21,347 bases of DNA from Pseudomonadota bacterium (GTDB lineage Bacteria > Pseudomonadota > Gammaproteobacteria > Steroidobacterales > Steroidobacteraceae), in assembly GCA_021817875.1 (NCBI GenBank), contig JAKAFQ010000009.1, positions 1 through 21,347 of the forward strand, written 5' to 3'. The notes beneath the pieces were generated by a model. It saw only the letters and a program-made list of their open reading frames with translations, was not told the DNA's origin and made no database searches. The translations under genes and the position numbers were made by a program. Below, one piece after another: positions 1-19,363 of the stretch (position 1 is its first letter; each line of letters opens with the position of its first letter).

Positions 1-397
1 CGGCGAGTGAGACTCGGCCAATGCCGCGGCCCCGGTAACGTCTCGAGACCATGGCGGTGTCGAGAAAAAAATCGGTTCCCGCCACCGTGATCTGATCCGG
101 CCACTCCCAGTAACCGAAACAGCAGCCCTCCAATGTGCCGTTGACTTCGAGTATCAGAAACAGCGCATCGGGATCGGCGCACACCTCATCGAGTCCCAGG
201 CGATCGAAGGCCACCCCGGGGGCACCGAATGCATCCCGTTCGAGGTCGAGGAGTCGATTCTCCATCTCGTGCGTGATGGATTCGACCAGCCTGAAGACAC
301 ACCGCTTGCCGCATTGCGCCGTGGCCGCACAGCCCATGGCCTCGAGGATCGCCCGCGCCTCCGGAACGTCCTTCTCGAAGTACTCGAGTTTGATCAC
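1..397 (-). CDS. GNAT-family N-acetyltransferase, C-terminus beyond the window
   Basis: An open frame of 132 codons runs from a GTG at 397 to the left edge with no stop. The translation begins (M)IKLEYFEKDVPEARAIL and near the edge contains SRRYRGRGIGR (residues 118-128). That is the R-x-x-G-x-G acetyl-CoA pyrophosphate-binding loop of GNAT enzymes, preceded by a hydrophobic strand and 'FFLDTAMVS' as expected for motif A. The GTG overlaps the TGA of the cyanophycin gene (GTGA, 4 bases), so the two are probably translationally coupled. No clear Shine-Dalgarno sequence precedes it; an in-frame ATG at residue 21 is a weaker alternative start. Family knowledge gives acetyl transfer from acetyl-CoA to an amine. 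The substrate is unknown; the context suggests a cyanophycin-related amine (Asp-Arg dipeptide, arginine, polyamine) or the polymer itself, which is inference only. Confidence 0.8.
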   Translation of the reverse strand, partial: MIKLEYFEKDVPEARAILEAMGCAATAQCGKRCVFRLVESITHEMENRLLDLERDAFGAPGVAFDRLGLDEVCADPDALFLILEVNGTLEGCCFGYWEWPDQITVAGTDFFLDTAMVSRRYRGRGIGRVSLA

Positions 398-3300
398 GAC
401 GGAGGCCGCATCAGATAGGCGTTGCCCCCCGCAGGCTGCATCGAGACCGCTGCCCGCGGCCGCATCGCCGGGCGGAAACCGACCACCTGGTCCCAGGTGC
501 GCTTCAGGTCATCGGCAAACAGCAGCAGCAGGTCGCCCGGCCGCGCGGCCCGCAGACCCGTCATGATCGCCTCTACCTCCGACGGCACCACGCGGATGCG
601 CTCCTCGGGGACCCCTGCGGACAGGAACCCTTCCCGCAGCAGTTGCGGCACCTCGTCCGGACCGCGACCGCGCAGCGAATCATCGCGACGGCAGATGTAC
701 AGGTCGAACAGGCCGGCTGCCGCCCGGGCGACTTCCCGGATGTCCTCGTCCCGTCGATCCCCGGGCGCCGCGATGACACAGATCCGGCCGCCGTCCTCAC
801 CGAGCTCCACCGCCGCCCTGCACATGGCGTTCACCGCGGCCGGATTGTGGCCGTAGTCCACGACCACCCGGAAGGGGTGGCCGTCGTAAATGTTGACGCG
901 TCCCGGAGTCTGTTTCAGGCTGGCGGCGAACGTCGAAAGACCGGCATGCACGGTCCGCGCACCGAGACCCATCCCGAGCGCGATCGCGGCCGCGAATGCC
1001 GCATTTTGAATATTGAAGCGCACCTTGCCGTTCACGGTGGCAGGGATATCCCGCACCCGGATCAGCTGCCTGCGCACGGCACCCTGGCATGCGATGAGCG
1101 CGGCCTCCTCGCTGTCGTCGAACACCACGGCCATGCCGCCGCCGGCAAGGTGGCGCTCGACGAGCGGATTGCCGCTGTCCATCGTGACGAGGCAGATCCT
1201 GCGTGCGCCGGCGTGCTCGACCATCGCCATGCAAAGCGGATCGTCGGCGTTGAGCACGGCCACATCCGTCGCCACCTCCACCACCATGCGCTTGACGACC
1301 GCCAGCTCCTCCGGGGTATCGATCCCGCCGATCCCGAGGTGATCCGCCGTGACATTGAGCACGGCCCCCACGCTGCAGTGTCGAAAGGCAAGGCCTTCCC
1401 GCAGCATTCCGCCCCGCGCCGTCTCCAGCACGGCCAGATCGACCGCCGGATCGTGCAAAACCATGCGGGCCGAAGCCGGACCCGTGGTATCACCGGCCGC
1501 GATCAGCTCGCCGTCGATGTACACGCCGTTCGTGGTGGTGAGACCGACGCGCCGCGCGGTCTTTGAGGCCACGTGGGCCACCATCCGCGCCGTCGTGGTC
1601 TTGCCGTTGGTCCCGGTGATCGCGGCGATCGGCACCGTGCTCGGCCGACCCCGGGGAAACAGGTGCGCGAGGATCCGGTCGGCAACCGGACGGGCAGCAC
1701 CCTCCGATGGCGCCAGATGCATGCGCAGTCCGGGGGCGGCATTCACCTCCGTCACGGCCCCTCCCACCTCCAGGTGCGAGCGGCAGATATCCGGTGTGAT
1801 GAAATCCACGCCGGCAAGGTCGAGACCGAGCGCACGCGCGGCGCGGACCGCCAGCAGCCGGTTGTCCGGATGAACGTCCTCCGTCACGTCCACCGCCGTG
1901 CTGCCGCGGGACAGGTTGGCGGCAGCACGCAGCCATACCCGGATGCCGCGGTCCGGCACGCTGTCGCGACAGTATCCGGCCCGCTTCAACATCCAGTCCG
2001 CTTCCTCGTCGAGTTCCAGGCGCGTCAGCACGTTTTCGTGTCCGTCACCGCGTCTCGGATCCTGGTTGAGACGCTCCACCAGTTGACCCACCGTGCTCGA
2101 GCCGTCGCCCACCACGTGGCCGGGAATCCGCCGGGCCGCGGCGATGAGCTTTCCGTCCACGACGAGCAGCCGGTGATCGAGGCCATCGATGTGCTTCTCG
2201 ACGAGCACACGGGCCCCTTCCCCCTGCGCTGCGCCGTACGCATCCTGCACTTCCTCGGCCGACCAGACGTTCGGCCGCACGCCCCGCCCCTGGTTGCCGT
2301 CCACCGGCTTGATCACCACCGGGAATCCCAGTCGTTTCGCCGCGGACACCGCCTCCGCCACGTCGTGCACCCGCAGCTGCGCAGGCACCGGGATCCCCAG
2401 GGTTCCGAGTACCCGATTGGTCAGGATCTTGTCCTGCGCGATGCTGACCGACAGATAGGGCGTCTCGCTGGTGATCGACGCTTCGATACGCCGCTGACGC
2501 GAACCCGTTCCGAACTGGATCAGGTGGTCGTCATCGATTCGCTCCCAGGGAATCCGGCGTCGCTCCGCCGCCTGCACCAGCGCCGCGGTGCTCGGACCCA
2601 GCCTGCGCCGCTCAGCCACGCTTCTGAACTCGGCGAACGCCGTCGCGAAATCGAACGCCGGCGCGGGCGCCGTCCCGCGCAGCGTCTGCGGCAGCAGCGA
2701 CTGCAGCAGTCTGAAGGCGAGCTCACCCGCCGCATGGCCGAGTTCCCGATCGCGAAACTCGTACACGACATCATAGACACCCCGACGGCCTTTCACTTCC
2801 CGCGCCCGACCGAAGGACACCGCGGAACCCACCATGTTCTGCAGCTCGATGGCCACGTGCTCCAGGATATGCCCGAGCCAGGTGCCCTCCCCGTCCGTGA
2901 GCCGGCGGACGAACCCCCCCGCAACGCCGTAGGAGCACCGATGCGTCCGCAGACCCGGGAGCGCCGCGAGCAGGGCCTCCTGGAACTGCCGTCCGAGGCG
3001 GCCGCTCGGCCACTGCTCGAGATCTCCGAGATCGAGCCGCAGCCTGATCACGGGGAAATAGGCCCAGACATTCGGACCGGCGTAAGTGGACGTCTCTTCA
3101 ACCTTCATGGCAAGTGTCTCCCGAGAAATCCCGTTCGGAAGCGTCGCGGTGCGCGAAGGCAGCTGAAATGCCGCGCCGTGAACCAGGAAATGGAATGTGA
3201 GATCCGTGATACCAATGGAAACGTGCCGTCCGGGCGGTCGGCCGAAACCGGTCCTGGCCCGACTCGGATCGATGAGGACGACGGTCCCCTCGCCGACCAC

Positions 3301-3960
3301 CTCGAGCGAGTCCTCCCCGACAAATGCCGCCGTATCCTCTCCGAGCCCGAGCCCCATCGCATCCGGGCACAAGGCAAGCGCGGTCAACAGGCGACCCGTG
3401 CGGTTGCGTCTTCCGAAATGTTGATCGATGATGAAGCGCGAGGTCAGGCCGAGCCCGGGCGCGAGATCCACCATGCCGGTGCGCGGCACCGACCCGCTCC
3501 TGCCGAAGCGGATCATGTGGGCTGAGAGGAACGAGGCCCCCGCGGAAGTGCCGCCCACGGTGACACCACGCGCATGCGCCGCACGGATCGCCCGCTCGAG
3601 ACGGGTACCGAGAACACGCTCGGCGAGCCGGCATTGTTCCCCGCCCGTGAAGAAAATGCCGGTCCCCTGTTCGAGCAGATCGGCCACACTCTGCCTGTTG
3701 GCTTCTCTGCGACTCCCGGCCTCCAGGATGCGCACCGAGCGCACTCCGAGACCCTGGAACATGCCCGCGTACCGCTCGCCGGTCGACTTCAGGGCCGATG
3801 CCATCGGCAGGACCACCAGCCGGGCGCGCGACCCACCGGATATCTGCACGAACCGCTCGAGAATCACCGATCTTCGGCCCGCGCCCCAATTCTCCGCACC
3901 GCCGATCAACACCAACGGGCCCGGCTGCGGATGCCCGACGCTTTTCGACTTCGAAGCCAT
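394..3960 (-). CDS. cphBA: Cyanophycinase-cyanophycin synthetase fusion (CphB-CphA)
   Basis: A single 1188-residue frame joins two enzymes that are normally separate. Residues about 14-275 are cyanophycinase (peptidase S51), an exopeptidase releasing beta-Asp-Arg: the nucleophile elbow GGTSAGAS (Ser139), DQHFGRRNR (His181) and GLGEDTA (Glu208) are intact. Residues about 285-1188 are cyanophycin synthetase, which adds Asp and Arg to the polymer using ATP. This part has an N domain (GPNVWAYFPV at 295-304, H-x-x-E-H at 364-368), an ATP-grasp domain (QDKILTNRVL at 509-518, IKPVDGNQGRG at 550-560, TEVNAAPG at 737-744) and a Mur-ligase domain (P-loop GTNGKTTT 783-790, GDTTGPAS, ETARGGM, NVTADHLG, DYGHNP). 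Each half has the usual family length, with a linker of only about 10 residues. No stop or frameshift separates them. The start at 3960 has no obvious Shine-Dalgarno sequence. Cytoplasmic. The family calls are very secure; whether the full fusion protein is made is less sure because of the internal start noted separately. Confidence 0.96.
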   Translation of the reverse strand: MASKSKSVGHPQPGPLVLIGGAENWGAGRRSVILERFVQISGGSRARLVVLPMASALKSTGERYAGMFQGLGVRSVRILEAGSRREANRQSVADLLEQGTGIFFTGGEQCRLAERVLGTRLERAIRAAHARGVTVGGTSAGASFLSAHMIRFGRSGSVPRTGMVDLAPGLGLTSRFIIDQHFGRRNRTGRLLTALALCPDAMGLGLGEDTAAFVGEDSLEVVGEGTVVLIDPSRARTGFGRPPGRHVSIGITDLTFHFLVHGAAFQLPSRTATLPNGISRETLAMKVEETSTYAGPNVWAYFPVIRLRLDLGDLEQWPSGRLGRQFQEALLAALPGLRTHRCSYGVAGGFVRRLTDGEGTWLGHILEHVAIELQNMVGSAVSFGRAREVKGRRGVYDVVYEFRDRELGHAAGELAFRLLQSLLPQTLRGTAPAPAFDFATAFAEFRSVAERRRLGPSTAALVQAAERRRIPWERIDDDHLIQFGTGSRQRRIEASITSETPYLSVSIAQDKILTNRVLGTLGIPVPAQLRVHDVAEAVSAAKRLGFPVVIKPVDGNQGRGVRPNVWSAEEVQDAYGAAQGEGARVLVEKHIDGLDHRLLVVDGKLIAAARRIPGHVVGDGSSTVGQLVERLNQDPRRGDGHENVLTRLELDEEADWMLKRAGYCRDSVPDRGIRVWLRAAANLSRGSTAVDVTEDVHPDNRLLAVRAARALGLDLAGVDFITPDICRSHLEVGGAVTEVNAAPGLRMHLAPSEGAARPVADRILAHLFPRGRPSTVPIAAITGTNGKTTTARMVAHVASKTARRVGLTTTNGVYIDGELIAAGDTTGPASARMVLHDPAVDLAVLETARGGMLREGLAFRHCSVGAVLNVTADHLGIGGIDTPEELAVVKRMVVEVATDVAVLNADDPLCMAMVEHAGARRICLVTMDSGNPLVERHLAGGGMAVVFDDSEEAALIACQGAVRRQLIRVRDIPATVNGKVRFNIQNAAFAAAIALGMGLGARTVHAGLSTFAASLKQTPGRVNIYDGHPFRVVVDYGHNPAAVNAMCRAAVELGEDGGRICVIAAPGDRRDEDIREVARAAAGLFDLYICRRDDSLRGRGPDEVPQLLREGFLSAGVPEERIRVVPSEVEAIMTGLRAARPGDLLLLFADDLKRTWDQVVGFRPAMRPRAAVSMQPAGGNAYLMRPPS
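3106..3122 (-). promoter_or_regulatory. Internal ribosome binding site and in-frame ATG at the CphB/CphA junction
   Basis: On the minus strand GGGAG (3122-3118) sits 9 bases before an in-frame ATG (3108-3106, Met285). That Met is where stand-alone cyanophycin synthetases usually begin. This would allow separate synthesis of a 904-residue CphA beside the fused protein. It looks like the remnant, or the still-working start, of a once separate gene. Confidence 0.4.
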
Positions 3961-3963
3961 TCA

Positions 3964-4143
3964 CTACACCACGACCCGTCGCGTCCGACGCGACACGCGC
4001 CCCGCCCAACCGGCCGCCAGGCCCGTCTGCCTGTTGCTGCCCCCGCTCGGATTGTTCCCTGCGCGTCCGACGCCGCGCGAATTCACGTTCTCCGGGCCAG
4101 TACCCTCGAGTTCCGCAGACATCCCGGTCACCATGCACATCAT
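3964..4143 (-). CDS. Candidate small upstream ORF (59 aa) with Arg-rich tail, hypothetical
   Basis: A short frame starts at tandem ATG ATG (4143-4138) preceded by the purine-rich AGGGTGGAAAGG. It ends with TAG only three bases before the cphBA ATG (TAG-TGA-ATG). Its last residues are GRVSRRTRRVVV, five arginines in seven codons (GRVSRRTRR). cphBA itself lacks a clear ribosome binding site, so coupling to this frame, or an arginine-sensing leader peptide, is conceivable because CphA consumes arginine. There is no domain or homology I recognise, and the composition is also what noncoding GC-rich DNA gives by chance, so this is weak. Confidence 0.2.
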   Translation of the reverse strand: MMCMVTGMSAELEGTGPENVNSRGVGRAGNNPSGGSNRQTGLAAGWAGRVSRRTRRVVV

Positions 4144-4230
4144 CCTTTCCACCCTGGTCCGATCCAGTCGTCCGGCGACATCGGCAGCCGCAGTTTCCGC
4201 CTGTAGGATTCTGGTCCGCGCGGCACTGTA

Positions 4231-4255
4231 ATTCGAGTTTCATTCAGAAACGAAT
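4231..4255. promoter_or_regulatory. Imperfect inverted repeat, possible operator between divergent operons
   Basis: ATTCG-ag-TTTC (4231-4241) and GAAACGAAT (4247-4255) form 9-base complementary arms around ATTCA, with a two-base bulge on the left. It lies in a locally AT-richer patch about midway between the two divergent genes, where a shared regulator could bind. The protein that would bind it is unknown. Confidence 0.3.
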
Positions 4256-4525
4256 ATGCGGATGTACCTACGAGACGACACCGCTCCGGCTGCAGCTCGC
4301 CCGGCCACCGTCTCCATGTCCGCCGCCGACGCGATCACCGACCCCATGCCCGGCGCACTGCTCGGTAGTTTCCCGTATTTTTGCCCTCACGCCATGGAAC
4401 GACGATGAACCGTATGACATTGACACTCACCTGACCCCGCCGCCGATACCCGCGCCCTACCCGGACCGACGCATCAGCATCCGACCCTGTCCCGCTGCGC
4501 CCTCCATGTCACTCGGAACACCCCC

Positions 4526-5722
4526 ATGACGTCAACCAGCGACTCCGAGGCACGCATACGAAAACTCGTCGCCGATTCGGGCCGCATCTCGACGCCGGCC
4601 TTCATCGTCGACGAACGGCAGCTCACCGCCAACATCACCACTGCGGCCGCCGCCATTCGCGGTGAACGCACCCGGCTGCTGTTTGCCATGAAGTCGTTTT
4701 CCGAGCGTGCCGCGCTCGCGCACATCGCGGCGCGCCTCGACGGCCTGCACGCCAGCTCGCTGTTCGAGGCGCAACTGGCCCGCGAAGTGCTGCCTCAGCG
4801 CGGAATCGTGCACCTGACCGGACCCGCGCTCAAACCAGCCGAGATCGGCAGGCTCTCCCGCCTGTGCGACTACATTTCCTTCAACTCCCTGTCACAGTGG
4901 AAACTGCACCGCGAACAGGCGAACGGTCGGGTCTCCTGCGGATTGCGCATCAACCCACGGCTGTCTCTGGTCGCGGACAAGCGCTACGATCCCTGCTGCG
5001 CCCATTCGAAGCTGGGTGTTCCGCTCGACCAGCTGGCCGACGTGCTCGGGTCCTCACCGAAGACCCTCGAGGGCATCGAGGGGCTGCTCGTACACAGCAA
5101 CTGCGATGCGACCGACTTCTCGCCCCTGCTGCGCACCGTGCAGAGACTCGAGCGACACCTGCAACCGCTGCTCGAGCGAGTGACCTGGATCAACCTCGGC
5201 GGCGGCTATCTGTTCGACGAAGCACCGGACCTGAGCCCGTTGCATCAGACACTCGATCATCTGCGCGCGAAGTATGCGGCCGACATCCTGTTCGAGCCGG
5301 GCGCCGCGATCAGCCGCAGTGCCGGCTACATCGTCTCCGAGGTCGTCGATCTGTTCGAAAACGATGGCCTGCCGATCGCGGTGCTCGATACCACCGTCAA
5401 CCACCTGCCGGAGCTGTTTGAATACCAGCTCAGCGCGGAAGTGCTGGACAGCAACGCCGGCGGCCGATACCGCTATCTGCTCGCCGGTGCGACCTGCCTG
5501 GCCGGCGACCTGCTCGGCGAATTCACATTCGAGGCACCGCTGCATGTCGGGCACCGCGTCATCATTGCCGACGCCGGGGCCTACACCCTGGTCAAGGCCA
5601 GTCTGTTCAACGGCGTCAATCTGCCCTCTTTCTACCGGCTTACCGAGTCCGACCAACTGGTGCTCGACAGGACTTTTACCTACATGGACTATCTGTCTCG
5701 ATGCGGAGCACACCCATGCTGA
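4526..5722 (+). CDS. nspC: PLP-dependent carboxynorspermidine decarboxylase-like protein (fold III)
   Basis: The 398 residues match the alanine racemase/ornithine decarboxylase fold III group and best fit the NspC branch. NspC removes CO2 from carboxynorspermidine or carboxyspermidine to give a polyamine. Visible motifs are FAMKSF with the PLP lysine Lys56, RINPRLS (141-147), SKLG (161-164), VHSNC (189-193), NLGGGY (223-228, phosphate grip), FEPGAA (256-261), LDTTVNHLPE, GATCLAGD (Cys324, catalytic acid from the partner subunit) and DAGAY (349-353). The length fits the family. The expected partner, carboxynorspermidine dehydrogenase (saccharopine dehydrogenase fold), is not in the window, so the natural substrate may differ. 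It is first in a two-gene operon with the DUF3326 gene and divergent from cphBA. The start ATG has only a weak upstream CGGA. The symbol marks the family, not a proven function. Confidence 0.85.
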   Translation: MTSTSDSEARIRKLVADSGRISTPAFIVDERQLTANITTAAAAIRGERTRLLFAMKSFSERAALAHIAARLDGLHASSLFEAQLAREVLPQRGIVHLTGPALKPAEIGRLSRLCDYISFNSLSQWKLHREQANGRVSCGLRINPRLSLVADKRYDPCCAHSKLGVPLDQLADVLGSSPKTLEGIEGLLVHSNCDATDFSPLLRTVQRLERHLQPLLERVTWINLGGGYLFDEAPDLSPLHQTLDHLRAKYAADILFEPGAAISRSAGYIVSEVVDLFENDGLPIAVLDTTVNHLPELFEYQLSAEVLDSNAGGRYRYLLAGATCLAGDLLGEFTFEAPLHVGHRVIIADAGAYTLVKASLFNGVNLPSFYRLTESDQLVLDRTFTYMDYLSRCGAHPC

Positions 5723-7032
5723 GCGTATATGAGGAAGAGTTCGAGGTTCCGGCAGTACCCGGCCATGCCGGGCTGCTCCGTCACCTGCGCACGCAGGTGC
5801 TCGCGCGACTGCGCGCCGACGCGCTGCCGGTGCGACTGACGGTCCCTGAGACCACCTCGAGCGGCTACCAGTGTGAGCTTGGCGTCATCAGCGGGCCGCG
5901 AGGCGCAGCGGCCAGACCGTTTCGGTCGATCTTCGATTTCCAGTCACGGCCAAACGAAGACTGTGGCGCGTTCAACACGGTATTTCTGATCCCGACCGGA
6001 ATCGGCTCGGAGCTCGGTGGTCACGCGGGCGACGCCAATGTCGCGGCGAGGCTTCTGGCCGCCGCCTCCGACCGGCTCATCACCCACCCGAACGTGGTCA
6101 ACGCCTCCGATCTCAATGAATTGCCGGAGAACGGACTGTACGTCGAAGGCAGCATCATTGCCCGGCTGCTGATGGGCACCATAGGTCTGCAACCGGTACG
6201 CGCCAACCGGGTGCTGGTGGTTCTCGAGCGGCATCCGGACAGTTACTTCTCCGACATGGCCATCAACTCCGTGAACGCCGCACGCGCCTCATTTGGCCTG
6301 GATGCCGCGGAGATCGTGATGCTCGATCCGGCCGTGCGACTCGAGGCGCTGTACGCGTCCTCGGGAAGGGCAGTAGGTCGCGTGGAGCGCCTGGAGGGCC
6401 TGTTGCGGGTCCTCGACGAGCGGCGAGGCAGCTACGATGCCCTGGCCATCAGCACCCAGATCGAGATGCCCGCCAATTATCACAAGGATTATTACGTCGC
6501 GCGCGGCGACATGATCAACCCGTGGGGCGGTGTGGAGGCGATTTTCACTCATGCGCTGTCCAGTCTCTACGACATTCCGGCCGCTCACGCGCCGATGGAG
6601 GCATCGCGGGAAGTCTCCAATCAGGATCTCGGCGTGGTCGATCCGCGGATGGCGGCCGAAGCGATCTCGAACGCGTATTTCATGTGCGTGCTCAAGGGTC
6701 TGCAGCGAGCACCACGCATCATCCGCGACATTTCCCCGGCTCCTCCGCCGGGAGTTCTCACCGCCGCCCAGGTCTCCTGCCTGGTGATCCCCGTCGGCTG
6801 CGTGGGCATCCCGACTCTGGCCGCCCTCGAGCAGGGAATTCCCGTCATCGCGGTGCGCGAGAACCGGAACATCATGAAAAACGATCTCGAAGCACTGCCC
6901 TGGCGCCGGGGACAGCTGCATGTCGTCGAGAATTATTGGGAAGCGGTCGGCGTCATGACCGCGCTGAAAGCCGGGCTCGATCCCGCCGGCGTTCGCCGCC
7001 CCCTCGGCGAAGCACGCTGCAACGGGGCCTGA
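5716..7032 (+). CDS. DUF3326 family protein of unknown function
   Basis: I recognise this as the DUF3326 family, known from cyanobacteria and scattered other bacteria, with no established activity. The ATG at 5716 is preferred over the one at 5701: GGAG (5705-5708) lies 7 bases upstream and the ATGCTGA overlap with the nspC-like stop is a classic coupled start. This gives 438 residues. Conserved-looking blocks are IPTGIGSELGGHAGDA (92-107), HPNVVNASDLNELPEN (124-139), EMPANYHKDYYVARGD (250-265), INPWGGVEAIFTH (267-279) and IPVGCVGIPTLAALEQ (358-373) followed by GIPVIAVREN. The last block resembles the donor-binding loops of nucleotide-sugar enzymes, only a loose likeness. There is no signal peptide or membrane segment, so it is probably cytoplasmic. 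Strict coupling to an NspC-like decarboxylase suggests both act on one amine pathway. Confidence 0.8.
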   Translation: MLSVYEEEFEVPAVPGHAGLLRHLRTQVLARLRADALPVRLTVPETTSSGYQCELGVISGPRGAAARPFRSIFDFQSRPNEDCGAFNTVFLIPTGIGSELGGHAGDANVAARLLAAASDRLITHPNVVNASDLNELPENGLYVEGSIIARLLMGTIGLQPVRANRVLVVLERHPDSYFSDMAINSVNAARASFGLDAAEIVMLDPAVRLEALYASSGRAVGRVERLEGLLRVLDERRGSYDALAISTQIEMPANYHKDYYVARGDMINPWGGVEAIFTHALSSLYDIPAAHAPMEASREVSNQDLGVVDPRMAAEAISNAYFMCVLKGLQRAPRIIRDISPAPPPGVLTAAQVSCLVIPVGCVGIPTLAALEQGIPVIAVRENRNIMKNDLEALPWRRGQLHVVENYWEAVGVMTALKAGLDPAGVRRPLGEARCNGA

Positions 7033-7070: not shown

Positions 7071-7838
7071 TCACATTCCGGCGGAAAAGCCCTCGTCCAT
7101 CAGCACCGTCGTGCCATGCATCGGGCGGGCTTCTTCGCTCGCGAGAAACGCCACCATCCCCGCCATCTCCTGCGGCGTCGAATACGTGCGGCCGCTCGGC
7201 GTGCGCGCCCCCATCGCCTCGAGCATCGAGCGGTACTCGGCACGCGTGCGAATCGCCTCGTTCATTGGCGTTGCCGTGTTCCCGGGCGCAATTGCATTGA
7301 CACGGATGCCGAGCGGCGCGAGCTCGCAGGCGAGCGCACGGGTCATCATCACGATGCCCGCCTTGGTCGCGCAGTACACGGAATAGCCCCCGATCCCCAT
7401 GAAACCGGCAACGGAAGCGACGTTGATGATCGAGCCCGCGCTGCGCAGCTTCATCGACGGCACCACGGCATCCACCATGGTGAACGTTCCGGTCAGATTG
7501 GTGGCAATGGTGAGATCGACGCTCTCATCGGCGCTTTCTCCGGCTGGAGTCGCCAGAAAGACGCCCGCGCAATTGACCAGGACATCGATGCGCGCGTGCC
7601 GGGCAAGAACCCGGGAAACGAGCATGCGTGCGCTGGGCCGATCCGTGACATCCGCGACCTCGCCGTGCGCGGTTCCTCCCTGGGCGCAGATCCCAGCCGC
7701 GACCTGCTGCGCACGCCCGAGATCACGGCGGGCCACGACCACGACCCGGGCTCCCTCCGAGGCGAGTCGTTCGGCAACGGCCCGACCGATGCCCTGGGTG
7801 CCTCCGGTGACCACGGCAGTCTTGTCTTTGAATCTCAT
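7071..7838 (-). CDS. SDR-family NAD(P)-dependent oxidoreductase
   Basis: A classical short-chain dehydrogenase of 255 residues. The Rossmann motif is TGGTQGIG (11-18), NCAG is at 89-92, the catalytic residues are Asn114, Ser142 and Tyr155-x3-Lys159 (YCATK), and PGN follows in the cofactor loop. The ATG at 7838 is chosen because MRFKDKTAVVTGG is the usual SDR beginning and GGGG lies 5 bases upstream. A GTG at 7856 would add six residues. It is last in the leftward operon, 30 bases after the BKACE stop, so it probably oxidises or reduces an alcohol/keto intermediate of the same pathway. The substrate cannot be read from the sequence. Confidence 0.9.
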   Translation of the reverse strand: MRFKDKTAVVTGGTQGIGRAVAERLASEGARVVVVARRDLGRAQQVAAGICAQGGTAHGEVADVTDRPSARMLVSRVLARHARIDVLVNCAGVFLATPAGESADESVDLTIATNLTGTFTMVDAVVPSMKLRSAGSIINVASVAGFMGIGGYSVYCATKAGIVMMTRALACELAPLGIRVNAIAPGNTATPMNEAIRTRAEYRSMLEAMGARTPSGRTYSTPQEMAGMVAFLASEEARPMHGTTVLMDEGFSAGM

Positions 7839-7868
7839 CGCAACCCCGAACTCCACCCGCGCCGCCGC

Positions 7869-8849
7869 TCAATAGGAACTCGGCACCGCCGATAGGCCGA
7901 GCATCCTGCGCGCCTGTGCCGGGGTCGCCACCTGCCGATTCAGCTCGTGCGCGATTCTGACCGTGCGCGCCACGACCTCCGCATTGGACTTCAGCTTATG
8001 CCCACGCTTCAAATACAGATTGTCTTCGAGACCGACGCGGACGTGTCCACCCAGCAACAGGGCGAATGTCGTCATCGGCAACTGAAATGGTCCGATCCCG
8101 GAACAGAGCCAGATCGCGCCGGCGGGCAGTTCCTTGACGAGTTGCAGCACATTCTCCGGCGTCGGGAAGCTCGAAGTCTGATAGCCCATCACGGTCTGCA
8201 CGTATACCGGTGAGTCGATGAGCTCATGCTCGATCAGGTCCCGCATCACCCACGCGCCTCCGGAGTGGTAGGTCTCGAGCTCCGGCTTGATGCCCCTCGC
8301 CTTCATGGCGCGGGCGAATTCCTCCACCAGGCGGTAGGTGAAGGGAATGCAGTCGTCGAACTCGATCGCACCACGGGGATTCGGCAGCGGCGGCTTGCGT
8401 TCCTTCAGCCTGAAGCGGCTCATGTCCGGGGTGAGATTGAGTGAGGCGAGCTCCGGTTTGGCGTCGAGACAGGACAGCCGGTTCTCCATGGTGGAATTCG
8501 GACCGCCGCCGGTCGTATTGTTGATGATGATGTCCGGACAGCGTGCCCTGATCCTGGAATTGACCTCCCACCAGGCCTCCGTCGTGATGGCAGCCTCGGG
8601 CAGATTGCGGGGATCCCGCGCATGCACGTGAACGACGCTTGCTCCGGCACGGTAGGCGTCGTACACGGAGTCGGCGATCTCCTCCGCGGTCTCCGGCAGG
8701 GCCGGGTGGGATTCCTTGCCCTGTACACCGCCGTTGCACGCGACGCAGATGATCGCCGGCGGCATTCCCTGCTGTACGCGCTCCATGAATTCGTACGTGT
8801 CGGCGTAGCGCCAGGATCCGGGAATTTCCACTGTGTCAATCGCGTTCAT
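7869..8849 (-). CDS. Beta-keto acid cleavage enzyme (BKACE/DUF849)
   Basis: 326 residues of the BKACE family, typified by 3-keto-5-aminohexanoate cleavage enzyme (Kce). These zinc enzymes transfer the acyl part of a beta-keto acid to acetyl-CoA, releasing acetoacetate and a new acyl-CoA. The zinc ligands are the His-x-His of HVHARDP (His74, His76) and Glu275 in HVRVGLEDN, with Arg271 and Asp276 as the usual neighbours. LPETAEEIAD, NTTGGG and ELETYHSGG are further family blocks. An extra N-terminus of about 30 residues (SWRYADTYEFMERVQQG) precedes the usual first strand and suggests a particular subfamily. It overlaps the hyuB end by 14 bases. Its presence argues that the operon's product is a beta-keto acid. 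The exact substrate is unknown. Confidence 0.9.
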   Translation of the reverse strand: MNAIDTVEIPGSWRYADTYEFMERVQQGMPPAIICVACNGGVQGKESHPALPETAEEIADSVYDAYRAGASVVHVHARDPRNLPEAAITTEAWWEVNSRIRARCPDIIINNTTGGGPNSTMENRLSCLDAKPELASLNLTPDMSRFRLKERKPPLPNPRGAIEFDDCIPFTYRLVEEFARAMKARGIKPELETYHSGGAWVMRDLIEHELIDSPVYVQTVMGYQTSSFPTPENVLQLVKELPAGAIWLCSGIGPFQLPMTTFALLLGGHVRVGLEDNLYLKRGHKLKSNAEVVARTVRIAHELNRQVATPAQARRMLGLSAVPSSY

Positions 8850-10632
8850 GAGAGGTACTCACTTGTGTGGAGCGCAGCGCACTCGTTGCTTGCTCATCGA
8901 CCCTGCCGTCCGCATCGACCGCGACCCGGTAGACCTGCCGCGCACGCTGCGCCGTGATCCAGCGCTCGCGCAGGTCGCTTGCCACCAGAAGCGGATCCCG
9001 CAGATCCGGCGGGCCATATCCGCCGCCGCCCGTGGAGACGGACAGGACTCGCTCGCCGGCGCGCAGACTCACTTGTGCACAGGCAGGCAGGGGCTCGCGA
9101 CCGCCATCCGCGCGCACCCGCCACTGATTCGCGCGGCCGCCGTCCAGGCCGCCGCGCACGCCCCGCGCGGGATTGACTGCGCCGTCGCTGACGTACCCGA
9201 CCGAAATTTCCCCGGCGAGGGGCCCGAATTCGACCGCGATGGAGGGCGCCCCCCGGTACCGTCCCGCCCCCTCGGAGTCGACCACCAGGCGGCGGCTGTA
9301 GACGTGAATCGGCTGACGCAACTCATCGAGTTCGATACTGTCGAGAAAGCACAGGCCGGCATTGCCGACGTGCCCGATCGTGAGCCAGGCATCGCAGCTC
9401 GGCGCCCCCGCCCCGCTCGTCATGCCGAGGAAAATCTGATTGACGAACGGCTCGCCGGTTTGCGGGTGTCGGCCGGAGATGACCCCCACGGCCGGAGGAA
9501 TCACCCCGCCGCACTCGGCGAGGCCGAAGCCCTCGGCCAGCTCGGCCAGGGCAGCCTGCACGGCGTTCGCGACCCGGTCCGCGACGTTGGTGGTTGCAAC
9601 CGACGTGCTGGTGGGGTGGCGGGGAATGCCGACCACGCAGTTTTCACGCAGCAGCAGCCGTATCCGGCCGCAGCTGCCGGAGTTCTTGGGTACCGTGTGA
9701 TCGATGGAGTTGAACACGCCGACCATTCCGGCCGTGCGGGCGCAGGCTTCGGAAAGGTTCATCCCGCAGGGGAAGCAATCGGGGTTGTCCCGCAGGTCGA
9801 CCTCGATCCAGCCGTCTTTCGGATCGGTGGTCACCTTGACTCGAACCGGTATGCCATCCGGCGGCGTGCCCGGAAACGGATCGTGGCGGCTCTCGCGTGT
9901 CACCGAGCCGCCTGGCAGCCTGCGAATGGCGTCGCGCATTCGCCGCTCGGAATAGCGCAGCCATTCCTCCTGGAAAGCCTCGATCGTGTCCCAACCGAAC
10001 TGCGCACCGAGCTCGAGCAGCTCCCGCTCGCCGATCCGCGCCGCGCCGACCATGGCGAGGTAATCACCGTGCCACTGCTCCGGAACTCTGATGCGCATCT
10101 GGCACATACGCAGGAAATCGGGATTGGTCCGGTAATTTTCCTGAACCTTCACGCAGGGAAAAATGAGCGCCCCTTCCTCGTAGACATCCCGCGCCGCTCC
10201 GTGGTAGGTGGTCGGGATCGAATTGCCGATGTCGGCCTGGTGCGCCTTGACCGCCAGCGTGAAACGATGCACGCCGCCGGCATCGACCACCGGAGCAAGG
10301 AAGGTGTGATCTGCGGCGTGCGAGCAGCCGTGGTAGGGCGAATTGTGCAGAAAGCCGTCGCCGGCACTGACCTTGGGGTGAAACTCCTTCATGACCCGGC
10401 ACATGATGTCAGGGCCCGACAGGACGTGGATGGGCAATGCCTCGTTCGTGACCAGGAGCCTGGCATCTGCGGTGACGATGCAGCAGGAGAAATCGCGGGC
10501 GCTGTTGAGCACGCCGGAGCGTCCGGTGCGCAGCAGCGTGTTCGCCATTTTGCGCGTGATGCCTTCGAATCGTTTGCCCAGGATCGCGAGCGTCACGCCA
10601 TCGAGCAGCGGCCGGGCAACGAAATCGTTCAT
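8836..10632 (-). CDS. hyuB: Hydantoinase B/oxoprolinase-family subunit (HyuB; carboxylase-like alpha subunit)
   Basis: 598 residues of the HyuB family, the catalytic partner of HyuA in N-methylhydantoinase, caprolactamase, 5-oxoprolinase and acetone/acetophenone carboxylases. The metal-site region AGDGFLHNSPYHGCSHAADH (90-109) and AHQADIG (130-136) are present, giving His105, Asp108, His131 and Asp134 as candidate ligands. The usual N-D-P-Y reads N-S-P-Y here. The C-terminal half has RGAPSIAVEFGP, RGGLDGG and the glycine-rich STGGGGYGPP that closes the family domain. It overlaps hyuA by ATGA and the BKACE gene by 14 bases, so it is strictly co-translated. Substrate (cyclic amide hydrolysis or ketone carboxylation) is not decided by the motifs; the BKACE neighbour favours carboxylation, which is inference. 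Confidence 0.9.
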   Translation of the reverse strand: MNDFVARPLLDGVTLAILGKRFEGITRKMANTLLRTGRSGVLNSARDFSCCIVTADARLLVTNEALPIHVLSGPDIMCRVMKEFHPKVSAGDGFLHNSPYHGCSHAADHTFLAPVVDAGGVHRFTLAVKAHQADIGNSIPTTYHGAARDVYEEGALIFPCVKVQENYRTNPDFLRMCQMRIRVPEQWHGDYLAMVGAARIGERELLELGAQFGWDTIEAFQEEWLRYSERRMRDAIRRLPGGSVTRESRHDPFPGTPPDGIPVRVKVTTDPKDGWIEVDLRDNPDCFPCGMNLSEACARTAGMVGVFNSIDHTVPKNSGSCGRIRLLLRENCVVGIPRHPTSTSVATTNVADRVANAVQAALAELAEGFGLAECGGVIPPAVGVISGRHPQTGEPFVNQIFLGMTSGAGAPSCDAWLTIGHVGNAGLCFLDSIELDELRQPIHVYSRRLVVDSEGAGRYRGAPSIAVEFGPLAGEISVGYVSDGAVNPARGVRGGLDGGRANQWRVRADGGREPLPACAQVSLRAGERVLSVSTGGGGYGPPDLRDPLLVASDLRERWITAQRARQVYRVAVDADGRVDEQATSALRSTQVSTSHERD

Positions 10633-12701
10633 GACTCGCTCCTCACGTCGATCGAAATGCTGCCGGATGGCCGCCGCACGGCCGTCGCGCCCGGATCGAC
10701 CACGATCGTGGTGAATGCGCTCTCTATGATGGCCGGCCCCTGAATCTCGACCCCGGTCTCGAGCGCATTCAGCGCATGAATCCGCGCCTCAACCCATCCC
10801 GTCGGGGCGAAGTACGCGCGCCTGTGCCGCACCGCAGCCGCCATCCCGGGCTCGTGCAGGCGCATCTGCGCGCTCCTCGGCAGTCGGCAGGACACGTGCG
10901 CCGACCAACCGATGAATTCGACGGAAGAAGCGCGGTCGGCGAAACTGAACAGTTCCTCGTGGGTGCGATGAAACTCCTCGACCAGCCGCTCGAGGTCCCG
11001 GTCCGAGCCGAAAGACTCGCAAGGCAGCCGTGTCTCGATCTCCCAGACCTGCGTCGAGTAGCGTGCCTGCGCGCTGTAGTGCACGCTGCCACCCGAGCAG
11101 CCCGCGCCGGCGGTTCGGATGAATTCCGCGCAGTGCGCGCCGAGGCCCGCGAGCACTCGGTTCACTCCCTCGAAGTCGAAGCGATGACTCTCGGTGACGA
11201 AGGCGCGATCGTAGTCGGCCCGCAGATCGGACATCATGGCTCCGGCGGCCGAGAGCGCCGCGCCGACCGTCGGGATGAGCACCCGCCGGCAACCGAGACG
11301 ACGGGCGATTTTCACGGAGTTCAGCCCCGCCGCCCCGCCGCCACCCACCAGTACCGCCGAGCGCGGATCGATCCCCTGGTTCACGGTGATGTCGACGATG
11401 GCCTGCACCATGTTCTCGGTGGCCACCTCGATGATGGCCGACGCCGCCTCGGTCACGTCGCGACCGAGCGGCGCGGCGACCTGTTCAGCGATGGCGGTGC
11501 GCGCCGCCTGCGCATCGAGTGGCATCGCGCCCCCGAGGAAAAAGCACGGATCGAGGTGGCCGAGCACCAGCGAGGCATCGGTCACCGTCGGATTCCGTCC
11601 TGCGCGGCCGTAGCAGGCCGGCCCCGGCACGGCGCCTGCGCTCTGCGGTCCGACGTGCAGCATCCCGCCGGCATCGATGTGCGCAATCGAGCCGCCTCCG
11701 GCGCCGATGCTGCGCACGTCAACCCATGGAAATCCCACCATCGTGCCGCTGTATTGAGGTCCGATCCAGGTGTCCCGGGTCACGGGAATGATCCCGTTGC
11801 GCACGAGGCTGACGTCGTAGGTGGTCCCCCCGGTGTCCGCCACGATGATGGTGTCGGCCTGCTCGTCGACTTGTCCGAACCATTTGCCCGCAACCGGCGC
11901 CATCGACGGCCCTGAATTGACGATCCGTATCGGCGTCTCTGCCGCGTCCTGCGCGTCGATGACCCCCGCCTGCGAAGTGACGATGAGCAGTCGGCCGGCG
12001 AATCCCGCTTCGCGCAGGCGTTGCTCGAGGCCGCGCATGTAGGGGCCCATGAGCGGCTTCAGCGAGGCGTCGATCGCCGCGGACGACGCGCGTCGAAACT
12101 CGCGGATCACCGGATTCAGCCGATGCGAGAGCGTATACGGCACTCCGGGCAGATGCCGTTCGATCAGCCCGCCCAGGTACTCCTCGTGGCTCGGATTGAC
12201 GATCGACCACAGCAGGCACACGGCGATCGCTTCGGCGCCCGCGGCGTGCGCCCGGCGCAGGACCTCCAGCGCCCGAGCCTCATCGAGCGGTTCCATCTGC
12301 GAGCCGTCGGGCCGCATACGCCCGGGCACCTCGAAGGTGAGCGAGCGGGGAATATACGGCGGCGGATAAGGCATTTCGAAATTGAACGGATCGGTTCGTC
12401 CCCCCTCGCGCAGCACCAGGATGTCCGGATGGCCGGCGCTGGTGAGCAGCGCCGTACGCGCCGTGCGCCCGGTGATGATCGCGTTGATCGCATGTGTGGT
12501 GCCGTATATGAAGTGACTTCCCTGCCCCAGAAGCTCGCGCCGCGAGCTCCGACACGCAGCGGCCGCCAGCTCGAGGGCCTCGAGCATCCCGAGCACGGGA
12601 TCCTCGGGCGTCGTCGCGGACTTGAACATCCGCTTGCCGCCCGAATCATCCTCGACGATCAGGTCGGTGAAGGTTCCGCCGGTGTCAACCGCGAATCTCA
12701 T
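10629..12701 (-). CDS. hyuA: Hydantoinase A/oxoprolinase-family ATPase subunit (HyuA; carboxylase-like beta subunit)
   Basis: 690 residues, the normal HyuA length. The protein opens with the family signature DTGGTFTD (6-13), an ATP-binding acetate/sugar kinase-type phosphate loop. It continues with YGTTHAINAI, the long hydantoinase A domain including VADTGGTTYDVS, then GAGGGSIAHID, PGPACYGR and PTVTDASLVLG, and GGGGAAGLN near the second ATP site. The role is to phosphorylate or activate the substrate with ATP for HyuB. The ATG overlaps the TGA of the upstream SDR gene (ATGA) and its own stop overlaps hyuB the same way. It could belong to a hydantoinase, a lactamase or a ketone carboxylase; single-gene 5-oxoprolinase is excluded because A and B are separate here. 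Confidence 0.92.
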   Translation of the reverse strand: MRFAVDTGGTFTDLIVEDDSGGKRMFKSATTPEDPVLGMLEALELAAAACRSSRRELLGQGSHFIYGTTHAINAIITGRTARTALLTSAGHPDILVLREGGRTDPFNFEMPYPPPYIPRSLTFEVPGRMRPDGSQMEPLDEARALEVLRRAHAAGAEAIAVCLLWSIVNPSHEEYLGGLIERHLPGVPYTLSHRLNPVIREFRRASSAAIDASLKPLMGPYMRGLEQRLREAGFAGRLLIVTSQAGVIDAQDAAETPIRIVNSGPSMAPVAGKWFGQVDEQADTIIVADTGGTTYDVSLVRNGIIPVTRDTWIGPQYSGTMVGFPWVDVRSIGAGGGSIAHIDAGGMLHVGPQSAGAVPGPACYGRAGRNPTVTDASLVLGHLDPCFFLGGAMPLDAQAARTAIAEQVAAPLGRDVTEAASAIIEVATENMVQAIVDITVNQGIDPRSAVLVGGGGAAGLNSVKIARRLGCRRVLIPTVGAALSAAGAMMSDLRADYDRAFVTESHRFDFEGVNRVLAGLGAHCAEFIRTAGAGCSGGSVHYSAQARYSTQVWEIETRLPCESFGSDRDLERLVEEFHRTHEELFSFADRASSVEFIGWSAHVSCRLPRSAQMRLHEPGMAAAVRHRRAYFAPTGWVEARIHALNALETGVEIQGPAIIESAFTTIVVDPGATAVRRPSGSISIDVRSES

Positions 12702-13495
12702 GCTTCGTATTCGACGTTTCCGTCGACTCCAATATGCTGACCGGAAATGTGTCGACCGGCAGCCGAGGCGAGGAACGCCACCATCGCCGCGATGTCCTCG
12801 GGCTCCACCATGCAGCGCAGCGACACATAGCGCAGCAGTGTCCTCTCATACTCTTCAGGCGATTCGCCGAGTGCGCGCGCCTTGTCGTCGATGACCTGCT
12901 GCAGGCGCTGTCCGCGGATGGCTCCCGGCAGGATGGCGTTCACCCGGATGCCGAACGGTCCGAGTTCGCGCGCCAGGTTCGACGTCATGCCAAGCACAGC
13001 CACCTTGGACACCACGTACGGCAGACGGCGCGGCAACCCGGTACGGGCGCTCCCCGAGGAGATATTCACGATCAGGCCGTCCCGCCGGCTTTTCATCGCG
13101 GGCACCGCCCGGCGCACGCAGAGGAAATGACTGGTGACGTTGCTCGCGAGCGTTCGATTCCAGTCTGCGCTCGAGATGGCCTCGACCTCGGCCGTGGGAC
13201 CCGCAATCCCCACATTGTTGACCAGCACGTCGATGCCCCCCAACCGACTTTCCGCCTCCGCGAACAGCGCATCCACGATCCGCTCGTCGCTGACATCCCC
13301 TGTGAAGGTGAGGATGTCCGCCCGCTGCGCATTGAGCTCCGCGATGCGATTTGCATCGATATCACACGCCATGACCGCCGCGCCGAGGTCCGCCAGCGTG
13401 CGACTGATGACCAGGCCGGCGCCCCCGGCCCCGGCAGTGACCAGCACCCGCCGCCCACTGAGTTGCAGCTCACATCTTTTTTTATCATCTATCAT
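12698..13495 (-). CDS. SDR-family oxidoreductase, first gene of the hyuAB-BKACE operon
   Basis: A classical short-chain dehydrogenase of 265 residues from the ATG at 13495. The Rossmann motif is TAGAGGAG (20-27), CDID (44-47) follows beta-2, so NAD preference is likely, NNVG is at 93-96, and the catalytic pair is Ser146/147 with Tyr160-x3-Lys164 (YVVSK). The frame is open 51 bases further upstream, but that stretch holds the promoter, so the shorter start is preferred. There is no Shine-Dalgarno sequence before it and the predicted transcript start is only about 5 bases upstream. It overlaps hyuA by 4 bases. Probably it oxidises an alcohol to the ketone or lactam used by HyuAB (inference). 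Confidence 0.88.
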   Translation of the reverse strand: MIDDKKRCELQLSGRRVLVTAGAGGAGLVISRTLADLGAAVMACDIDANRIAELNAQRADILTFTGDVSDERIVDALFAEAESRLGGIDVLVNNVGIAGPTAEVEAISSADWNRTLASNVTSHFLCVRRAVPAMKSRRDGLIVNISSGSARTGLPRRLPYVVSKVAVLGMTSNLARELGPFGIRVNAILPGAIRGQRLQQVIDDKARALGESPEEYERTLLRYVSLRCMVEPEDIAAMVAFLASAAGRHISGQHIGVDGNVEYEA

Positions 13496-13505
13496 ATTTT
13501 CATAT

Positions 13506-13514
13506 ATTATATCA
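13506..13514 (-). promoter_or_regulatory. Extended -10 promoter of the SDR-hyuAB-BKACE operon
   Basis: The minus strand reads TGATATAAT, that is TG-n-TATAAT, a perfect extended -10. A start of transcription near 13499-13500 would leave a leader of about 5 bases before the ATG at 13495. The -35 region at 17 bases (TCCATA) is poor, as extended -10 promoters allow. A TTGATC-17-TATGAA alternative exists. The AT-rich island contrasts sharply with the GC-rich surroundings. Confidence 0.6.
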
Positions 13515-13518
13515 CTAG

Positions 13519-13528
13519 TTTGATCAAA
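13519..13528. promoter_or_regulatory. Palindrome TTTGATCAAA, probable GntR operator (copy 1)
   Basis: A perfect 10-base palindrome in the divergent region between the SDR operon and the GntR gene, about 20-29 bases before the predicted SDR transcript start, inside the promoter spacer. The same palindrome occurs in the receptor promoter at 19384-19393. A repressor bound here would block the operon and could autoregulate the GntR gene. Confidence 0.5.
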
Positions 13529-13693
13529 TATGGAGCGCGCGCACACGGCGCCCGGATTTGCCTGGCCGCTCGAACCTCAGGCATAGTAGTTGGAGTGTCG
13601 GACGCGCACCGACCGGACACGATGACGCGAGCCATGCCCCCTCGGAATGCACGACCACCCGCGCGCCTGCTCCGGCGCAAGACGCCGCCGGCC

Positions 13694-14410
13694 ATGACGG
13701 ATGCCGCACCGTCCGAAAACGGCGGTCGCACCGCGTACGAACAGGCCTACGAAGCACTCCGCGGCACGATACTGGCCGGCGGCTTCAGACCCGGCGAAGT
13801 GCTGACCTTGCGCGCGCTCGAGCACAAGCTCGGTCTTGGAGCCATGCCGGTCCGCGAGGCGCTCAAGCGGCTCATTTCCGAGGGCGCCTTCGAAGGCCTG
13901 CCGAATCGTTCCGCACGCGTCCCCTCGCTCAAGCGCCACCAGGTGGAGGAAATTCTGGATCTGCGCCAGGACCTCGAGGGCAAGGCCGCCTATCTGGCCG
14001 CGAAAAATGTCACGTTGCGCCAGATCGAGTACCTGCGCGCGCTGCAGGAGCAGATGACCCGGTGTGCCGCCGACGGCGATGTCCGGCGCTACGCCGAGCT
14101 CAACATGACGTTCCATTTCGAGATCTATCGCATCGCGGAAAGCCCGGTGCTGCTGACACTGATCCAGGCCCTCTGGCTGCGCATGGGCCCCATTCTCACC
14201 AGCAGCGTCGCATTGATTGCCCGCGACCGGCAGGCGTTCAATCGAACCGGCGTGCATTATCACGAGAAGATTCTCGACGCCTTTCACAAGCGGGACCCCG
14301 CCGCCGCGCAGACCGCCATGCGTGCCGATCTGATCACGCCGACCACTGCCAGGGGTTACTGGGAGGCAATCGAGCAACGCTCCGCAGAACACGGGCCGCG
14401 CCCGCTCTGA
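13694..14410 (+). CDS. GntR-family transcriptional regulator, FCD subfamily
   Basis: 238 residues. The N-terminal winged helix (YEQAYEALRGTILAG...GEVLTLRALEHKLGLG...VREALKRLISEGAF, about 14-75) is typical of GntR, followed by the all-helical FCD ligand-binding domain. FCD metal ligands are seen at His141 (MTFHFEIY) and His190 (HYHEKILDAF); the usual Asp before the first His is Asn137 here. The ATG at 13694 gives the usual family length. ATGs at 13622 and 13634 and a GTG at 13595 are in frame with no better ribosome site, so the start is uncertain. It is divergent from the SDR-hyuAB operon and convergent with the permease operon, so it is the obvious local regulator, probably a repressor released by a carboxylic acid pathway compound. 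Confidence 0.9.
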   Translation: MTDAAPSENGGRTAYEQAYEALRGTILAGGFRPGEVLTLRALEHKLGLGAMPVREALKRLISEGAFEGLPNRSARVPSLKRHQVEEILDLRQDLEGKAAYLAAKNVTLRQIEYLRALQEQMTRCAADGDVRRYAELNMTFHFEIYRIAESPVLLTLIQALWLRMGPILTSSVALIARDRQAFNRTGVHYHEKILDAFHKRDPAAAQTAMRADLITPTTARGYWEAIEQRSAEHGPRPL

Positions 14411-14431
14411 CGCCTGACCGGATGGCGACGC

Positions 14432-15853: not shown

Positions 15854-15867
15854 GCCTTCGCGAGTCG

Positions 15868-16959
15868 TCAGTTGGTCGGAACATTCCGCCAGGCTCCCGA
15901 CTGCTCACTCTCGTAGATGGCGAGCAGCGCCTGCAGCGCCCGAATACCGTCTTCCGCGCACGACGCCGGCTCCTCGCTGCGCTCGATGCCTGCGCAGAAC
16001 TGCCGCAGCTGCGCGCCAAAATGCCAGGGTGTGGTCGCGTCCGGCAGGCGAACCGATTCCAATTGCCCGGAGCGATTGACCAGCAGCCGGTTCGCGTAAT
16101 GAAATATTCTGAGCGCCCCGGTGCTGCCGAAAACCCGGATCTGTCCCGGATGCGCATCCCAGGCGCCGCTGTCGCCGATCCAGCCGCGCTCATCGACCCA
16201 GGTGCGTGCGCCGCTGAAAATCCCTTCGGTTGGCAGGTCCAGCCAGCGGCTGCTCTGATCGTAGATGAGCACTCCCTGAGTCCCGCTCGCCAAAGCGAGC
16301 CATGCCAGCTCCGGCCGTGCTGACGCACCGGAGCGGTCGCCGCGGCCGAACACGGCGCTGATCGGCGAGCCGCACAGCCAGGGAAACACATCGAGCATGT
16401 GGATGCCGTGATCCACCAGGCCGTAACCGCCTCCCCCCGGGCCTCCCTGCGGATAATGCGCCATCGACATCGGCCGATACGCCGCTGCGCCATCGCCACC
16501 GACCACCTGCTCGAGGATCAGGCGGACCTCCCCGATCTCTCCGGCGCCGATCCGGCGCCGCGCCTCGATGAGCGCCGGCAGGAAACGATACGACGATCCG
16601 TAGAAGAAGCTCACCCTCGCCGCGCGGCAGGCCGCGGCCATCGCCCGGGCGTCCTCCAGCGTGATCGCCATCGGTTTTTCACACAGCACATGCACGCCGG
16701 CGGCGGCGCACTGCTCGGTAATCATCCGATGGGTCGCCACGGGCGTGAGCACGCAGGCCACATCGGGTCGCGAACGCTGCAGAAGCTCCGCGCAGCTTCC
16801 ATAGCCTGGCACCCCGTAACGTCGCGCCAACTCCTCGCGCCGCTCGCCTCTCGGCTCCGCGAGCCCGATCAACCGCACGCAATCGAGGCGCGCATAGGCT
16901 TGAAGATGCGACTCCGCGACCGTACCGCCGCCGATCACCGCTAGCGTATACGTCTTCAC
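15868..16959 (-). CDS. Gfo/Idh/MocA-family NAD(P)-dependent oxidoreductase
   Basis: 363 residues, the standard length. The N-terminal Rossmann fold starts AVIGGGTVAESH (7-18). The EKP motif (94-96 in CEKPMA) with Lys95 and the later D-H-x-x-H (Asp183, His184, His187 in VDHGIHMLD) are the family's catalytic and substrate-binding positions. Members oxidise or reduce sugars, inositols and related hydroxy compounds. The start is GTG (16959), with GAGGCGG about 12 bases upstream, 15 bases after the receptor stop. Placed between receptor and permease genes, it probably modifies the imported compound. No signal peptide is seen, so it is cytoplasmic. Substrate unknown. Confidence 0.88.
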   Translation of the reverse strand: MKTYTLAVIGGGTVAESHLQAYARLDCVRLIGLAEPRGERREELARRYGVPGYGSCAELLQRSRPDVACVLTPVATHRMITEQCAAAGVHVLCEKPMAITLEDARAMAAACRAARVSFFYGSSYRFLPALIEARRRIGAGEIGEVRLILEQVVGGDGAAAYRPMSMAHYPQGGPGGGGYGLVDHGIHMLDVFPWLCGSPISAVFGRGDRSGASARPELAWLALASGTQGVLIYDQSSRWLDLPTEGIFSGARTWVDERGWIGDSGAWDAHPGQIRVFGSTGALRIFHYANRLLVNRSGQLESVRLPDATTPWHFGAQLRQFCAGIERSEEPASCAEDGIRALQALLAIYESEQSGAWRNVPTN

Positions 16960-16974
16960 GGCCGGCGAACCGCC

Positions 16975-19299: not shown

Positions 19300-19345
19300 A
19301 GGCAGCACCCCCAGTACCCGGACCTTCTGCAGTCCGTTCTTAGTA

Positions 19346-19355: not shown

Positions 19356-19363
19356 TTATGACA

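Follow-up and report, generated by a model that had tools for sequence, protein, structure and literature searches.

The enzymes of cyanophycin metabolism closest to those considered here are the S51 cyanophycinase CphB, the cyanophycin synthetase CphA1, and CphA2, a beta-Asp-Arg polymerase with the cyanophycin synthetase fold. The site of CphB is formed by the catalytic Ser, His and Glu together with the substrate residues Gln101, Asp172, Gln173, Arg178, Arg180 and Arg183. In a genome survey cphB and cphA are treated as separate clustered genes (535 of 658 genomes), and the excerpted text of that survey makes no mention of a fused or bifunctional form (excerpt of PMC10206079). A Cys and an HxxEH motif in the N domain occur in 83% of CphA1s (excerpt of PMC9262961). 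Within the open-access literature searched, as far as its available text goes, no natural CphB-CphA fusion was found; most subscription journals lie outside that body of literature and an earlier report is possible.

The window analyzed here is a stretch of 21,347 nucleotides from a genome of the Steroidobacteraceae (contig JAKAFQ010000009.1), in which the two enzymes are encoded as one polypeptide. The structure, relatives and probable origin of this gene are described below, together with the residues that were kept or changed in each half and the activities that the joined protein may have.

A cyanophycinase-cyanophycin synthetase fusion and its origin

The gene occupies positions 394..3960 of the minus strand as a single open frame of 1188 codons that starts at ATG and contains no internal stop, as an earlier note on this DNA had described. 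That note also placed cyanophycinase and CphA in one chain of 1188 aa, and both halves exceed the cut-offs of the corresponding NCBIfam equivalogs in hmmscan: TIGR02069 (cyanophycinase) scores 211.5 bits against 126.6 over residues 16-260, and TIGR02068 (cyanophycin synthetase) 1068.1 bits against 850 over residues 286-1160. NF010623 reaches 1069.5 bits (cut-off 877) over residues 285-1161, the Pfam domains agree with the NCBIfam assignment, and the closest solved structures by sequence are the cyanophycin synthases 7lgm, 7lgn and 7lg5 and the cyanophycinases 3en0, 7uqw and 7uqv. The order of domains, all on the minus strand, is an S51 cyanophycinase (3151..3927, about residues 12-270; TIGR02069 and alignment to 3en0 and 7uqw), a linker of residues 271-284 (3109..3150) which by comparison with locus L001 corresponds to the C-terminus of a separate CphB and to the probable site of a lost stop, and a synthetase of the CphA1 type. 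The latter comprises an N domain (2626..3108, about residues 285-445; PF18921 at 307-423 and alignment to SuCphA1), a G or ATP-grasp domain (1633..2625, about residues 446-776; alignment to SuCphA1) and an M or Mur ligase domain (466..1632, about residues 777-1165; PF08245, PF02875 and alignment) that includes GTNGKTTT, Asp873 and His874.

A protein search for S51 and CphA in one chain, as suggested in the earlier note, covered about 5.8 billion proteins and gave 867 relatives among 7987 scored candidates. The top five of the best 120 of these 867 (P0001-P0005) are clusters of 1156-1189 aa, 76-96% identical to the window protein, with Pfam domains from S51 through Mur ligase; the closest relatives are thus fused as well, contrary to the possibility raised earlier that all of them might have two genes. 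Residues 1-284 used as query with a whole-protein length filter returned 14 matches, namely P0001-P0005, P0122, P0124 and seven proteins with other domain arrangements. Distant fusions might be missed, since in both searches (7987 candidates for the whole protein, 7991 for residues 1-284) only the candidates sharing most words were scored. Both domains are also present in P0122 (745 aa) and P0124 (851 aa), which were not counted as clean fusions, their Arg- and Ala-rich stretches resembling out-of-frame translation. Next in rank comes P0006 (905 aa, 78% identical), which starts at the position of Met285, followed by P0007-P0018 (about 900-930 aa, 62-68% identical across the CphA part). A tree built from 44 CphA rows places the six fused proteins in one group (97/97), adjoined by P0006 (100/100) and then by P0007; L001 and L047, both loci from Gemmatimonadota, belong to an adjacent clade of 11.

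Turning two genes into one requires merely a vanished stop, and the long matches P0122 and P0124 do look like frameshift products, so that a sequencing or assembly slip (a missed stop or a frameshift) was considered as the source of the join. It was rejected as extremely improbable because the same in-frame junction recurs in five other clusters, down to 76% identity; moreover, third-position G+C over codons 271-300 (0.67) is inside the range found along the gene. The CphB-CphA join is therefore confirmed as a genuine gene fusion.

Outside this clade the genes were found apart, in line with the earlier statement that cphB and cphA are usually separate neighbours. Eighty loci were fetched among the matches listed, partly through peptide patterns in the N domain or the G domain; cphB lies upstream on the same strand in 76 of them, three have no cphB in the stretch covered, one has only a weak match on the opposite strand, and none contains a fused cphB-cphA. 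Matches were obtained in 99 of 395 sampled genomes of the phylum of G001, where all 19 near-full-query matches contain a stop, and in 67 of 196 genomes of the order of G004, where each of 28 such matches contains at least one. Further genome searches, which overlap the former set, gave no unbroken match over both halves, and the 23 pattern matches in viral_contigs included no relatives.

In L001 cphB and cphA share one frame with a single TAG between them, the junction from the CphB terminus into CphA reading RTATPPPGTSEA, stop, RT and Met. The window reads RTATLPNGISRETLA followed by Met285, whose counterpart is the CphA start in L001 and in the aligned unfused relatives. The cphB and cphA of L047 do not share a frame. 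A frame common to both genes is seen in many of the top-ranked loci, an observation to be read with care as a tblastn match can cross a single stop and the ranking favours such loci. Since the old CphB C-terminus and the old CphA start are both still recognisable in the window, the loss of one stop codon would suffice, and loss of a single in-frame stop between neighbouring cphB and cphA is the most likely origin of the fusion, as judged from one neighbour, L001.

Residues kept and changed in the two halves

Ser139, His181 and Glu208 of the S51 half align with Ser132, His174 and Glu201 of Synechocystis CphB and are kept in all six fused proteins, which bears out the earlier claim of an intact catalytic set; the catalytic Ser is replaced by Ala in the solved chain 7uqw. 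All nine catalytic and substrate residues listed above for CphB are identical in the alignment of six fused proteins and 74 separate CphBs. The S51 changes confined to fused proteins occur around the site, among them Gly or Ala in place of the Asp that precedes the catalytic Glu and is present in 74/74 separate CphBs. P0004 and P0005 begin late and, as called, miss the first S51 strand. Pairs within the fused clade whose CphA parts are 78-84% identical show 65-76% identity in S51, and among 2701 unfused pairs the 5-95% range of CphB identity is 65-84% at CphA identities of 75-80% and 67-85% at 80-85%. The S51 half does not look decayed, since its identity falls at or inside the unfused range, near the low end.

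The CphA half was compared across 201 rows collected on the basis of similarity, and the N-domain motif contains one of the two peptide patterns used to find loci, so that the invariance of residues is partly selected. The equivalents of N-domain His57, Cys59, His79, Glu82, His83 and Glu87, those of K261 and R309, and the M-domain P-loop Lys787, Asp873 (Asp585) and His874 (His586) are the same in 201/201 rows. By alignment to SuCphA1 the N-domain metal site of the window protein consists of Cys342, His364, Glu367 and His368, with HxxEH at residues 364-368 (2857-2871); the Cys-to-His spacing is 21 rather than 19, and 21 is also found in 121 of 130 sequences scanned. Identity as CphA2 was rejected because the latter is described as having no such N-domain motif (excerpt of PMC9262961).

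The earlier note had seen all ATP-grasp and Mur-ligase motifs in this half. This holds for the Mur-ligase residues checked, the N-domain HxxEH being intact as well, and fails at two G-domain positions, where Gln557 (2290-2292) stands for the P-loop His267 of SuCphA1 and Ser506 (2443-2445) for Glu215. His267 has been located by the acylphosphate, with Glu215 contacting the last unit's arginine (excerpt of PMC9427784); H267A serves as a G-site knock-out (excerpt of PMC9262961), and E215A removes most of the activity of TeCphA1 and leaves SuCphA1 nearly half (excerpt of PMC9427784). The first position is His in 183 of the 201 rows and Gln in 18, namely the six fused proteins, P0006 and 11 sequences related to them. 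Outside the fused six Gln is seen in P0006, P0008, P0010-P0013, P0015-P0018, L001 and L047, and His in P0007, P0009 and P0014. The change from His267 to Gln hence did not come with the fusion, as P0006 and unfused relatives also carry it. At the second position all six fused proteins have Ser, 15 sister rows have Asn, Asp or Glu, and the 180 others have Glu (173) or Asp (7). In the fused proteins the large loop near Asn394 has changed too, and R309, R323, N394, S396, D431, E450 and R458 are kept in all six. With His267 and Glu215 replaced, the chemistry of the CphA half is assigned by family.

Conserved changes found only in fused proteins number 35: the G domain has 22 of them, the M core 10, the N domain two and the M lid one. 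Six lie in a set of 24 G-site residues, for which five control groups gave 4, 3, 0, 0 and 0 changes; sister clades account for the 4 and the 3, and the groups with 0 have just 0, 3 and 12 changes overall. Hypergeometric P values were 0.002 for the G domain, 0.0002 for the 24-residue set and 0.05 for the three changes in the set that are not shared with relatives, all of them optimistic because the set was picked after the changes had been seen and shared ancestry was ignored. To judge from these residues, the G site appears altered and not obviously dead, and one half of the enzyme may be weak or altered, given Gln for His267, Ser for Glu215 and Gly or Ala for the S51 Asp.

These changes permit two further readings of the protein. 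The S51 half might no longer be a peptidase and might now serve as a polymer-binding or granule-targeting module, which would agree with the fused-only changes near its site, including the loss of an Asp invariant in all 74 separate CphBs; yet Ser, His, Glu and six more site residues are intact in 6/6 and divergence stays at or inside the usual CphB range, so this is unlikely. Less probable still, the clade could make an altered cyanophycin-like polymer, the G site having changed where it reads the growing end. The replacement of Glu215 and His267, the loop changes near Asn394, the concentration of fused-only changes in the G domain and the conserved decarboxylase, DUF3326 and GNAT neighbours (see below) are consistent with it, but the aspartate-binding R323, N394, S396 and R458 are retained, the M lid holds just one of the 35 changes and the enrichment was measured on a set chosen after the fact, its unshared part giving P of about 0.05.

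The former CphA start and the gene neighbourhood

The ATG of Met285 (3106..3108, minus strand), the former CphA start, is a possible internal start. A Shine-Dalgarno-like GGGAG (3118..3122, minus strand) precedes it by 9 nt, and anti-Shine-Dalgarno pairing is -7.4 kcal/mol there vs -3.9 at the annotated start. Seventy-nine cphA starts in the fetched loci (among the matches listed), each taken as the nearest start codon at or upstream of the match, have a median of -5.7, and about 80% of them are no stronger than Met285, so that free CphA is a possible further product. In the linker region all six fused proteins agree at Glu281, Leu283 and Met285, while residues 276-280 differ among them. Glu281 is preceded by Arg, Pro or Gly, and because each of these has a codon ending in G, GGAG could be what the linker keeps, a point drawn from the residues, the DNA having been read for the window gene. 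One gene would then give two products, full-length CphB-CphA and free CphA, and mixed tetramers with few cyanophycinase domains would limit a futile cycle. Such a scheme, compatible with the preferred reading of a bifunctional enzyme, is held tentatively and at less than even odds: although the ATG of Met285 is third of 23 internal ATGs in pairing energy, two later ones pair more strongly, and a stretch of equal strength precedes 7.6% of all codon positions.

Downstream of the fusion the window edge cuts a GNAT acetyltransferase gene (1..397, minus strand; PF00583, 26.3 bits, cut-off 20.7), whose GTG start and the cphA stop overlap (GTGA), an arrangement also present in L001 and L047. In L001 (5612-7585) and L047 (7201-9192) the GNAT part that overlaps the cphA stop is joined to an MFS transporter. 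On the other side, divergently, lie a PLP-dependent decarboxylase like carboxynorspermidine decarboxylase (4526..5722, plus strand; TIGR01047, 292.5 bits, under the cut-off of 409) and a DUF3326 protein (5701..7032, plus strand; PF11805, 300 bits) whose gene overlaps that of the decarboxylase by 22 nt. The two genes occur near cphBA in the window (4526-7032, plus strand), L001 (7644-10131) and L047 (9233-11720); among the matches listed, whose flanks are unequal, their homologues are absent from the remaining loci except L109, a second cut of the contig of L001. DUF3326 homologues 78-85% identical were found on contigs equal in size (26576, 13623 and 29248) to those of P0002, P0003 and P0004, which suggests that they share these contigs. 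DUF3326 matches were also seen in 1 of 61 genomes of the order of G001 and, among 14 control genomes, in one, that of Synechococcus elongatus. The 369 genomes of the class of G005 gave none at 1e-100, in a search with no positive control, and no PDB sequence matched at E up to 1. In Synechocystis a DUF3326 gene is placed beside fed3 (excerpt of PMC4284462).

Sigma-54-type activators lie directly upstream of cphB in L001 (1030-2016) and L047 (2231-3655), where the window has the decarboxylase gene. The remainder of the window (7071-21347, mostly minus strand) is a catabolic run including two SDRs, a 3-keto-5-aminohexanoate-cleavage-like enzyme, hydantoinase/oxoprolinase A and B like caprolactamase, a GntR/FCD regulator (plus strand), a GFO/IDH/MocA oxidoreductase, a TonB-dependent receptor, an M20 hydrolase and a second hydantoinase B, present in part; the set suggests the use of a lactam- or hydantoin-type compound. 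No Rfam RNA was detected in the window at gathering scores, and a simple consensus scan found no promoter or terminator at 3900-4600.

A possible bifunctional enzyme compared with CphB and CphA

The reading that we prefer, with a probability of about 0.62, is a fusion of single origin by stop loss that yields a bifunctional granule enzyme, able to build as well as to mobilise cyanophycin. One chain would hold four sites: the S51 exo-cyanophycinase, an N-domain endo-cyanophycinase that would make primers, the ATP-grasp G site that would add backbone Asp, and the Mur-type M site that would add the side chain. Acting on polymer granules, the enzyme would both build and mobilise polymer, with the net direction probably set by the supply of ATP, Asp and Arg and by the enclosure of chains in granules; any free CphA started at the kept Met285 codon could lower the cyanophycinase dose further. 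Joining the activities need not be fatal, because aspartate acts cooperatively on TeCphA1, half-saturating it at 18 mM (excerpt of PMC9427784) and precipitation has been argued to shield chains from the N-domain hydrolase (excerpt of PMC9262961). The primer trimming by the peptidase that was suggested earlier is not needed and seems less likely to be the point of the fusion, since the CphA N domain retains the residues of its own primer-making site (excerpt of PMC9262961). A self-contained machine for a non-standard cyanophycin could also be imagined, in which the same chain with its altered G site builds and exo-degrades the polymer, the internal start supplies free synthetase, and the decarboxylase, the DUF3326 protein and the acetyltransferase provide the side-chain amino acid or act on it, a combination that we regard as improbable.

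Among the relatives examined, polymer making and breaking are kept in separate proteins, and a clade in which they are joined, spread down to 76% identity, indicates that both can be inherited at a fixed stoichiometry. With that stoichiometry fixed, avoidance of a futile cycle becomes testable in terms of granule burial, substrate supply and a second translation start. The fusion may offer a single enzyme for making cyanophycin and releasing beta-Asp-Arg units, and the step from the gene pair of L001 to the fused gene provides a natural series for the study of gene-fusion formation.

Compared with the known systems, the cyanophycinase half resembles CphB (3en0, 7uqw, 7uqv) in its TIGR02069 score over the cut-off and in having the Ser, His and Glu of the catalytic set with six other site residues, and differs in running on into CphA and in the Gly or Ala before the catalytic Glu. 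The synthetase half shares with the CphA1 structures (SuCphA1 7lg5, TeCphA1 7wac, 7lgm, 7lgn) the N, G and M domains over residues 285-1161, and with SuCphA1 the N-domain HxxEH and the M-domain residues; unlike them it has an N-terminal cyanophycinase domain, Gln for His267, Ser for Glu215 and a Cys-to-His spacing of 21 instead of 19. The gene pairs of L001 and L047 encode both enzymes in the order found in the fusion, with a shared frame as well in L001, but as two proteins with a stop between, 64% identical to the window protein in CphA and 52-53% in S51, whereas the window has, in place of a separate cphB-cphA pair, one frame of 1188 codons with no intervening stop.
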